A stretch of 23,657 nt of DNA from a virus. Each line of letters begins with the position of its first letter. Positions within the stretch are counted from its first letter, which is position 1. Where the stretch lies: positions 1 to 23,657 of the IMG/VR virus record IMGVR_UViG_3300042892_001873; one strand, given 5' to 3'. This document shows, piece by piece, positions 7,933-10,011 of this stretch. Under the pieces are notes generated by a model. It searched no databases, was not told where the DNA came from, and worked only from the letters and a program-made list of their open reading frames with translations. A program made the position numbers and the translations under genes.

Positions 7933-10011
7933 ATGATAACAATTAAAAACATTACATTACGAAACTTCCTATCTATTGGCAACGTGACACAAGCAGTTGA
8001 CTTTGACAAGAAAGACATTACACTTATCCTAGGGGAGAACTTAGACTTAGGTGGCGATGGTGCTCGTAACGGTACTGGCAAGACCACATTGATCCAAGGT
8101 CTTAGTTATGCCTTGTTTGGCGTACCCATTAATAGCATTAGAAAAGATAATTTAGTTAATCGTACAAATGGTAAGGGTATGATGGTCACGTTAGAATTTA
8201 ACGTGAATGGTACTGACTATAAAATTGAGCGTGGCCGTAAGCCCAACGTTCTAAAGTTCTATGTCAACGATGTACAGTCTAAAGCATCGGAAGATCAACA
8301 AGGTGAGAACAAAGAAACACAGGCTGCTATTGAGCGTGTGTTGAATATGAGCCCGGAAATGTTCAAACACATTGTAGTGTTGAACACATATTCTGAACCA
8401 TTCCTTGCTCTAAAGAATAATGAGCAACGTGAAATCATTGAGCAACTATTGGGTATCACGTTGCTTTCAGAAAAGGCAGAGGTTGTTAAAGAGTTAATCA
8501 AGCAAGCTAAGGACGATATCCAACAAGAAGAATTTCGTATCAAGGCAGTTGAAGAAGCCAACAAGCGTGTTAAAGAACAGATTGATGCCATCAAACGTAG
8601 ACAAATGTTATGGCAACGCAAGCATGATGAGGATTTGTCTGCACTAGCGTTACAGTATGACGAGCTTAGTAAAATTGATATTGTAGTTGAACTGCAAGCA
8701 CACAAAGACTTACTCGTTTGGAATGAGCAGAAAAAGCAACAAGAAGCATATGATGCGTTGATTGCTAGACAAACTGCTTGGATGCAAAAACAAGACAAAG
8801 ATATTGCGGCTCTCACGCTTAAAATGGATGAACTAAGTCATATTGATTTTGTTGCAGAGTTGCAAGCACACACTGACTTAGCTGAGTACAATAAACAAGT
8901 ACAGATGAAAACTTTGTACGATAGCAAGATTGATAGTTTACGTAAAGACATTACCAAAGAAGGTAAGAACTATGATAAGCTGACACAAGAAGTTGAAACT
9001 CTCAAAGAACACAAGTGTTATGCATGTGGTCAAGATTTTCATGATGACCAACACACTAGCGTTTTGAATAGCAAAGTAGAGTTGTGTAATAATAGTAAGA
9101 GTCATCTAGATGACTTAAAGTTCCAACTTGATGAATTGGTTGCAGGACCTATTGAAGTAGGAAACAAACCTGTTATACATTATAAAACAGAGGCTGAAGC
9201 AGTACGTCAGTCAACAGAAATTGATAACATCAAAAAGCAGATTGACGAAAAATCTAGTGAGAATAACCCCTTTAGTGAACAGCTTTTTGACACGCCTAGT
9301 TTCACTTTAGGTAAGCAGCCGTCTACTCATTACGATACTGAAACACAAGCAGTAGAGCACCGATCAAAGGTCTCATCTATCTTATCACAAATTGAGAGTA
9401 AAGCACAGGAATCTGATCCTTATCAAGAACAAATTGGCGAAATGGAGGCTCAGGCACTTCAAGAGGTAAAATTTGATAAGATTAACGAGATCACCAAAGC
9501 TATGGAACATCAAAAGTTCTTGCTTGACTTACTGACTAGCAAAGACAGTTTTGTTCGTAAGAAGATTATTGACCAAAACTTGAGTTATTTGAATGCACGA
9601 TTGACACATTACTTAGACAAGATTGGCTTGCCACATAATGTTATCTTTAAGAACGACTTGACAGTTGAAATAACTGAGTTAGGTCGTGAACTTGACTTTG
9701 ATAATTTAAGTCGTGGTGAACGCAATCGTTTGATTCTTGGCTTGAGTTTTGCTTTCCGTGATGTATGGGAGAACTTATACGCACCGATCAATACTCTATT
9801 TATTGACGAATTGATTGACAGTGGTCTTGACACAATGGGTGTAGAGAACAGTTTAGCAATTCTAAAAGATATGAGTCGCCGTCGTCACAAGAGTATTTGG
9901 CTAGTATCACATAGAGAAGAACTTGCCGGTCGTGTACCTAACGTACTCAAAGTTATCAAAGAAAACGGCTTTACGTCATATAGTACTGATAGCGAGATGT
10001 CAGATGTTTGA
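7933..10011 (+). CDS. 46: Recombination ATPase subunit gp46 (SbcC/Rad50-like)
   Basis: This SMC-like ATPase is the partner of gp47. Walker A is GARNGTGKTT (43-52) after the N-terminal strand MITIKNITLRNFLSIG. Long coiled-coil arms flank a zinc hook CYAC (C362, C365). The ABC signature is LSRGERNRL (592-600), Walker B is TLFIDELIDSGLD (621-633), and the switch-like SIWLVSH follows (654-660). At 692 residues it is clearly longer than T4 gp46 (560). Most of the excess is two tandem duplications, one on each arm: residues 223-278 repeated at 279-333 (56-residue period) before the hook, and about 402-451 repeated at 452-501 (50-residue period) after it. It abuts the small ORF upstream, and its 3' end overlaps the radical SAM start by 8 nt. 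Confidence 0.95.
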   Translation: MITIKNITLRNFLSIGNVTQAVDFDKKDITLILGENLDLGGDGARNGTGKTTLIQGLSYALFGVPINSIRKDNLVNRTNGKGMMVTLEFNVNGTDYKIERGRKPNVLKFYVNDVQSKASEDQQGENKETQAAIERVLNMSPEMFKHIVVLNTYSEPFLALKNNEQREIIEQLLGITLLSEKAEVVKELIKQAKDDIQQEEFRIKAVEEANKRVKEQIDAIKRRQMLWQRKHDEDLSALALQYDELSKIDIVVELQAHKDLLVWNEQKKQQEAYDALIARQTAWMQKQDKDIAALTLKMDELSHIDFVAELQAHTDLAEYNKQVQMKTLYDSKIDSLRKDITKEGKNYDKLTQEVETLKEHKCYACGQDFHDDQHTSVLNSKVELCNNSKSHLDDLKFQLDELVAGPIEVGNKPVIHYKTEAEAVRQSTEIDNIKKQIDEKSSENNPFSEQLFDTPSFTLGKQPSTHYDTETQAVEHRSKVSSILSQIESKAQESDPYQEQIGEMEAQALQEVKFDKINEITKAMEHQKFLLDLLTSKDSFVRKKIIDQNLSYLNARLTHYLDKIGLPHNVIFKNDLTVEITELGRELDFDNLSRGERNRLILGLSFAFRDVWENLYAPINTLFIDELIDSGLDTMGVENSLAILKDMSRRRHKSIWLVSHREELAGRVPNVLKVIKENGFTSYSTDSEMSDV
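8599..8931 (+). repeat. Tandem duplication in gp46 coiled-coil arm 1
   Basis: Two in-frame copies 168 nt apart encode residues 223-278 and 279-333. Shared landmarks at a constant 56-residue offset include the Trp at 227/283, DELS at 243/299 and ELQAH at 253/309. The DNA of the copies has diverged but is still alignable. Confidence 0.85.
9136..9435 (+). repeat. Tandem duplication in gp46 coiled-coil arm 2
   Basis: Two in-frame copies 150 nt apart encode residues of about 402-451 and 452-501, on the other side of the zinc hook. Shared positions at a 50-residue offset include HY (416/466), AV (423/473), QI (436/486), and NPFSEQL matching DPYQEQI (445/495). It is more diverged than the arm 1 duplication. 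Confidence 0.75.

Follow-up and report, generated by a model that had tools for sequence, protein, structure and literature searches.

The arm lengths of SMC proteins are multimodal, with natural steps of about 100 residues, and engineered SMC arms function at certain lengths only (Buermann et al. 2017, PMC5344682). The viability period reported there is 91, not far from the superhelical one of about 99. According to the authors of that study, such a length constraint probably holds for Rad50 too; the two strands of each arm were averaged there, sequences whose shorter strand fell below 75% of the longer one were discarded, and the term "duplication" was not found in that main text. Tropomyosin, described in the same source, is a coiled coil of repeated units in which the loss of whole units is tolerated. 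For SMC and Rad50 proteins, an open question is how a folded-back arm is resized when both of its strands must change together; paired duplications in their arms were searched for in titles and abstract openings of the open-licence literature, where none was found.

The gene analysed here, gp46 of a virus, encodes a Rad50/SbcC-type protein, which is the Rad50-like partner of gp47 in the phage complex of the two. We propose that its arm is built as a paired module, with a 56-residue unit (A) on the outgoing strand and a 50-residue unit (B) on the strand returning from the zinc hook, each unit consisting of a helix plus conserved non-helical breaks. This module would have been duplicated long ago on both strands, giving a long form (2A:2B), relatives with 1A:1B being the short form. 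With the two strands adjacent to each other, a change on one strand only would give a mismatched arm, which would not be kept. Taken as a whole, this paired-module explanation is the one we hold to be likely.

The gp46 gene of the window and its neighbours

The window, i.e. the whole stretch of DNA analysed, is a 23.7-kb virus record, the sole near match of which at the DNA level in the phage collection is a segment of 159 bases in the major head gene of Pectobacterium phage CBB. The features discussed below are listed in Table 1. PHROG 77 (SbcC-like) matches gp46 over residues 1-686 (E 1.5e-109), and the Pfam domain AAA_23 is found with an E-value of 8.7e-15 (56.3 bits vs. a cut-off of 27). 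The top structural match is E. coli SbcC 7yzo_D (Z 29.8, 337 residues aligned, rmsd 6.5), and the Foldseek and VIA-align comparisons, in which the middle arms are little informed, bear out a Rad50/SMC fold, the predicted model being Rad50-like. The protein has an ABC/SMC-type ATPase head, with G47, G49 and K50 as well as S593, G595 and E596 invariant in 70 of 70 aligned rows, residues which we take to be those of the Walker A and signature motifs. It also has a CxxC zinc hook at the arm tip, as CYAC sits between two long predicted helices (AF2) and both of its cysteine columns hold C in 245 of 245 sequences. An Mre11/gp47-like gene lies upstream, the Metallophos match falling within 6665-7714 (E 1.7e-4, 22.6 bits vs. 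a cut-off of 21.5).

Table 1. Features of the gp46 region, in window coordinates
Feature	Residues of gp46	Position	Strand	Basis
gp47 (Mre11/SbcD-like) partner gene		6665..7717	+	ORF; Pfam Metallophos
gp46, Rad50/SbcC-like ATPase subunit, long form 2A:2B	692 aa	7933..10011	+	ORF
Approximate outer limits of the cassette apparently exchanged in relatives (window numbering)	~219 to 526	8587..9510	+	change points in relatives' long/short pairs with near-identical heads
A1, first 56-residue unit, N-arm	223-278 (equally 211-266, nt 8563-8730)	8599..8766	+	offset-56 match
Predicted N-arm helix break in A1	247-249	8671..8679	+	AF2, block pLDDT 85
A2, second 56-residue unit, N-arm	279-334 (equally 267-322)	8767..8934	+	offset-56 match
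Predicted N-arm helix break in A2	302-305	8836..8847	+	AF2, block pLDDT 64
Zinc hook motif CYAC	362-365	9016..9027	+	C362 and C365 invariant in 70 aligned sequences
B1, first 50-residue unit, C-arm	404-453	9142..9291	+	offset-50 match
Predicted non-helical C-arm stretch in B1	405-419	9145..9189	+	AF2, block pLDDT 61-66
B2, second 50-residue unit, C-arm	454-503	9292..9441	+	offset-50 match
Predicted non-helical C-arm stretch in B2	454-469	9292..9339	+	AF2, block pLDDT 65-79

Concerning the other genes of the window, a radical SAM protein (Pfam PF04055) directly follows gp46 and is split into two parts with a 4-base overlap (10007-10654 and 10651-10932, + strand). The parts are in different frames in loci L001 and L046 too, while the protein reads through in one frame, with no stop, in L012, L013, L023, L049, L050, L070, L414, L422 and L450. 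Roughly two 147-base tandem copies (87% match) are found at 4445-4718, inside a 732-aa ORF of the - strand (3410-5608), and tandem arrays with periods of 15, 30, 54 and 84 bases at 15339-15958, where they encode Gly/Pro/Ala-rich repeats in a 1184-aa ORF (13142-16696). A fatty acid desaturase gene (Pfam PF00487) is carried by this phage at 22839-23564.

Tandem duplications on both arms

An ungapped self-comparison of gp46 matches residues 211-301 to 267-357 at offset 56 (37 of 91 identical, score 173) and residues 409-489 to 459-539 at offset 50 (23 of 81 identical, score 117), while the third-ranked offset scores just 37. Shuffle maxima are 46 (60 whole shuffles), 49 (60 local shuffles) and 58 (300 heptad-phase shuffles of residues 181-560), so that both duplications, the 56-residue one before the hook and the 50-residue one after it, which had been pointed out in a sequence-only reading, are real. 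That reading had also called them unrelated to each other, in agreement with the absence of any mutual match between A and B units above score 37 in the self-comparison. Since the similarity extends beyond two copies on both sides (over 91 and 81 residues), the unit boundaries are arbitrary. The distances from CYAC, put at about 29 and 37 residues by the same reading, were close but not exact: 27 residues separate A2 from C362, and 38 separate C365 from B1. As for the claim that the duplications account for most of the 132-residue excess over T4 gp46 (560 aa), it stands, since the two arms exceed those of T4 by 63 and 49 residues, i.e. 112 of the 132.

At the DNA level, the A copies are identical at 96 of 168 positions (57%), with a longest in-register exact run of 12, and the B copies at 72 of 150 (48%), with a longest run of 8; DNA repeat finders applied to the window did not report either gp46 duplication. 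Judged from these identities, the copies within the gene are old and eroded.

Arm sizes among the relatives

Relatives were gathered from IMG/VR loci (numbered L) and named phages. Of 427 loci, 13 partial ones were dropped and identical proteins were merged, which left 272 distinct full-length loci and, with the window and 24 phage references, a set of 297 that is not fully non-redundant, since references 121Q and KVP40 recur as L343 and L344. The Lak-A2 phage, without a full ORF, was excluded. N-arm lengths were counted between residue 176 (window numbering) and the hook, and C-arm lengths between the hook and residue 537. Of the 463 to 599 confirmed matches of each of the five IMG/VR scans, the best 80 were covered, so unpaired forms may exist among the remaining ones. 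In L247 (Salicola phage SCTP-2) and L248 (Stenotrophomonas phage CM1), the gp46 homologues lie in much longer ORFs with extra N-terminal sequence, possibly a fusion with gp47.

Among the matches listed, the close relatives have two sizes: a long form, with an N-arm of 186 and a C-arm of 174-179 residues (119 distinct sequences, window included), and a short form, with 130 and 125-129 residues, respectively (130 distinct loci). The usual steps, from 186/175 to 130/125 and from 186/178 to 130/128, are of 56 and 50 residues, which are the unit lengths. In these matches, no N-arm length between 130-131 and 186 was found in close relatives, mid sizes (146-152) being confined to distant phages of Gram-positive hosts, and in no case among the 249 distinct close relatives with these sizes is a single one of the two duplications present. 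A count of 141 sequences, window included, gave 109 long forms, 31 short forms and one mismatch. This survey of gp46 lengths, within the matches listed, supports the core idea of the sequence-only reading, namely that the duplications go together because the arms pair.

The sole mismatched relative found among the matches listed is L070 (ORF 1451-3238), with arms of 186/81 and two A units, in which about 97 C-arm residues are absent in frame from an otherwise intact ORF. Its head groups with L049, and it may be either genuine or mis-assembled; a scan with L070 as query gave no second mismatched case among the matches listed. With L070 set aside, the two arm lengths are correlated at r=0.993 (296 sequences), vs. 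r=0.966 with L070 included in an earlier set of 245. The sampled family spans arms from 116/115 to 245/251, matched throughout except in L070 (e.g. T4 123/126, Staphylococcus phage ESa1 152/154, KVP40 216/218), the N-arm being longer than the C-arm by 7-12 residues in long forms and by 21 in XaC1. These differences, and the inequality of the unit lengths (56 vs. 50), speak against an exact pairing. Of the 13 partial loci, seven have two measurable arms, which match in each case (L007, L048, L051, L055, L107, L153 and L453); one arm was measured in L062, L074 and L092, the first two of which agree with the two sizes, while L278, L346 and L360 were left out of the measurement. Such wide variation of arm lengths in the family might be expected if two chance in-frame duplications, without structural meaning, had been kept by drift, yet this reading is hardly credible, since 249 distinct relatives fall into discrete paired sizes and, among the matches listed, L070 alone departs from the rule.

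In order to count units, A and B profiles were built from long forms, window included. They score 86.9 (A1, residues 211-266), 87.4 (A2), 67.5 (B1, 409-457) and 78.3 bits (B2, 459-508) in the window, a count of 2A:2B, whereas counts are 1:1 in L039, L067 and Sinorhizobium phage Phosso. No A or B match above 2 bits was found in the gp46 of T4 or KVP40, and a T4-like origin of the units was therefore rejected; KVP40 has longer, matched arms, yet without A or B units. In KVP40 gp46 (L250, 601-2838), candidate C-arm self-matches, judged on raw scores, are seen at offsets 22, 44 and 66. Concerning the distant phages, Vibrio 2.275.O has 2A:2B by profile at 8-32 bits, XaC1 has one A and two B, 121Q has one partial match of each, and single-strand matches below 8 bits occur in Alishewanella phage, CM1, Staphylococcus phage ESa1 and Bacillus phage KKP_4049. 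The unequal or partial counts in distant jumbo phages speak against strict pairing. Self-matches of Vibrio 2.275.O (offsets 60 and 54, scores 53 and 51) are at the level of the window's shuffles and were discarded.

Age of the duplication and size changes

A tree of the A units of 60 long representatives separates all A1 from all A2 as two clades (SH-aLRT 97), so the A duplication occurred once, before these representatives diversified. The idea that a fresh event was captured in the gene of the window must thus be abandoned. The corresponding B1/B2 unit tree needs two changes, one being still compatible. A short ancestor from which the long form arose several times by independent paired duplication would fit the short T4-like, cyanophage and Deifobo-like relatives and the short first branches of the midpoint-rooted arm tree. 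The clade split, however, is compatible with one early gain and not with repeated ones, and identity between A1 and A2 does not exceed 50% (mean 34%) in 109 long forms; for A, repeated gain is largely refuted, and we judge it very improbable overall. Under the paired-module explanation, what looks like the live process is a switching between long and short forms, often resembling cassette exchange.

The number of such switches was estimated on quick trees with many open forks. On the head tree of 81 rows, the short form needs 14 changes, at least six of them on well-supported branches, and on that of 98 rows of the window's group 17 changes, six of them well supported; the arm-flank tree outside the units (123 rows) needs seven, four of them well supported. 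In six well-supported independent pairs, the C-arm follows the N-arm in 5.9 or 6.0 on average and never goes the opposite way (p 0.031): as read from the head trees, both arms change size together. The group of L039 lies, on the arm tree, within a supported mixed set with the window's clade (12 rows, support 96), and may represent a paired loss in place. In a breakpoint scan of 12 short/long pairs, almost every short arm resembles copy 1 most closely at its front and copy 2 at its rear, a pattern that outgroup short forms partly share, so that the scan alone is no proof of loss.

Probable exchange of the arm-hook cassette

Phages with about 97% identical heads can have opposite arm sizes, with arm flanks 38-40% different. 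At head distances of 0.02-0.05, all 173 long/short pairs have arm flanks more than 0.30 apart, vs. about 1% of 681 same-size pairs, counts that overlap since sequences recur across many pairs. In 18 disjoint long/short pairs, a drop in identity sets in at residues 217-232 and is reversed from about 494; in 74 same-size pairs, identity stays at 69-98% all along the arms. Fourteen of these 18 pairs belong to one head cluster (heads within 7%, and at least 23% from the other group), in which the N-side change point is at 219-221 in 14 of 14. In the smaller group, it lies at 240-251 in L026/L098 and L024/L098 and at 152 in L015/L066, and is poorly located in L023/L058, L024/L056 and L023/L056. C-side change points are found between 484 and 526.

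These cassette-like identity profiles suggest that many size switches, which look like exchanges of a whole arm-hook segment between phages with near-identical heads, would have moved both strands at once. In the smaller group, the cassette of L058 is 17% different from that of L059 (heads 12%), whereas it differs by 55% from the cassette of L024, the long relative closest to it by head (heads 3%), and the same cross-head sharing is seen for the cassettes of L066 and L068. In the large switch cluster, a search for a donor found none (among phages with other heads, the short cassette closest to that of L413 is 57% different), so it is the identity profile that points to exchange there. This negative result, and the concentration of 14 of the 18 pairs in that one cluster, count against the explanation.

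A few cases, namely L067 and perhaps the L039 group, would be paired changes within one cassette lineage. L067 is short, yet its cassette is nearest that of the long L034 (0.34), the nearest short one in the set being at a distance of at least 0.51, which looks as if both arms had changed together inside a cassette of the long type; from residue 219 on, however, DNA identity in the front A segment of L067 falls to 50%, so that local recombination is possible too. L067 also bears on another reading, in which the arm-hook segment recombines as one block and the two sizes hitch-hike together without selection for matching. The cassette-like profiles and the cassettes common to different heads would alone keep the sizes linked in this way, but L067, shorter than its nearest cassette relative, and the matching of arm lengths across the whole span of the sampled family speak against it, and we consider it unlikely. 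The paired-module explanation would add selection against mismatched strands.

Predicted structure and register of the arms

AF2 models were examined for the long form (ma1861925d063, mean pLDDT 82.5) and for the short L039 (mean pLDDT 78.3). In the long model, block pLDDT is 64-75 over residues 261-330, 48 at 361-370 and 61-74 over 401-460, and the mid-arm prediction is uncertain because of these low values. In addition to the helix breaks and long non-helical stretches of Table 1, a short non-helical stretch is predicted in each B unit (442-447 and 492-497). Near the A1 break, I250, E253 and H257 are at least 90% conserved in 70 aligned sequences, as are P463, Y467, E470, A473 and H476 at the B2 stretch. 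The short model has one N-arm break (246-249), one long stretch (349-363) and one short stretch (387-391); its retained A break comes from A1 and its B stretch from B1, which are not partners if A1 faces B2. If each B unit has an extended stretch, its 50 residues could cover the same length as 56 residues in a helix, and each module, if its 56 residues are helical, probably adds about 8 nm of head-hook reach.

The facing of the units was approached by unit-tree covariation in 57 long forms, head and hook removed, which is 0.31 for A1-B2, 0.18 for A2-B1, 0.18 for A2-B2 and 0.07 for A1-B1. The A1-B2 value exceeds that of A1-B1 in 99% and that of A2-B2 in 83% of 300 bootstraps. Linkage would not favour this pair, A1 and B2 being the furthest apart in the gene, although both are head-proximal, a caveat on their covariation. 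Residue covariation peaks at register sums near 719 in the head half and 728-731 in the hook half, a shift of the kind expected when two 56-residue units pair with two 50-residue ones, but the parallel-diagonal control failed. In A1 x B2 the best parallel diagonal (4.3) exceeds the best antiparallel one (4.0), and this measure was rejected as register evidence; parallel diagonals also score as high or higher in the hook half, the wrong pairing A1 x B1 reaches an excess similar to that of A1 x B2, and A2 x B1 gave no signal. We infer that A1 faces B2 and A2 faces B1, an arrangement favoured by the unit trees, not discriminated by residue covariation, and unproven.

Comparison with known systems

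Long and short gp46 arms on almost identical heads occur naturally and are directly comparable in the laboratory. Exchange of the whole arm-hook hairpin is a plausible genetic route for resizing, in which no mismatched intermediate is needed. As a tentative extension, to which we give slightly less than an even chance, gp46 arm length would be a two-state natural polymorphism, in which phages that circulate together exchange an interchangeable hairpin cassette, made of either one or two paired joint modules and kept in register, as a natural counterpart of engineered SMC resizing.

As in T4 gp46, SbcC and Rad50, the protein of the window combines an ABC-type ATPase head, long helical arms, a CxxC hook and a gp47/Mre11-like gene nearby; unlike it, T4 gp46 has arms of 123/126 and lacks any A or B match above the 2 bits mentioned earlier. 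In an SMC joint, both strands are interrupted at one height; in gp46, helix breaks are predicted on each strand, in AF2 models with low mid-arm pLDDT, and may or may not face each other. Tropomyosin is a parallel two-chain coil, whereas gp46 has two unrelated repeats that go together on the two strands of one chain. Like the SMC arms of PMC5344682, gp46 arms have discrete lengths, with intermediates missing in close relatives; unlike them, the gp46 step is of 56/50 residues rather than about 100, and is made of recognisable paired sequence repeats. The length-constrained SMC/Rad50 arm is thus already known, and what the gp46 arm adds is a smaller, paired-repeat step together with a visible genetic route.
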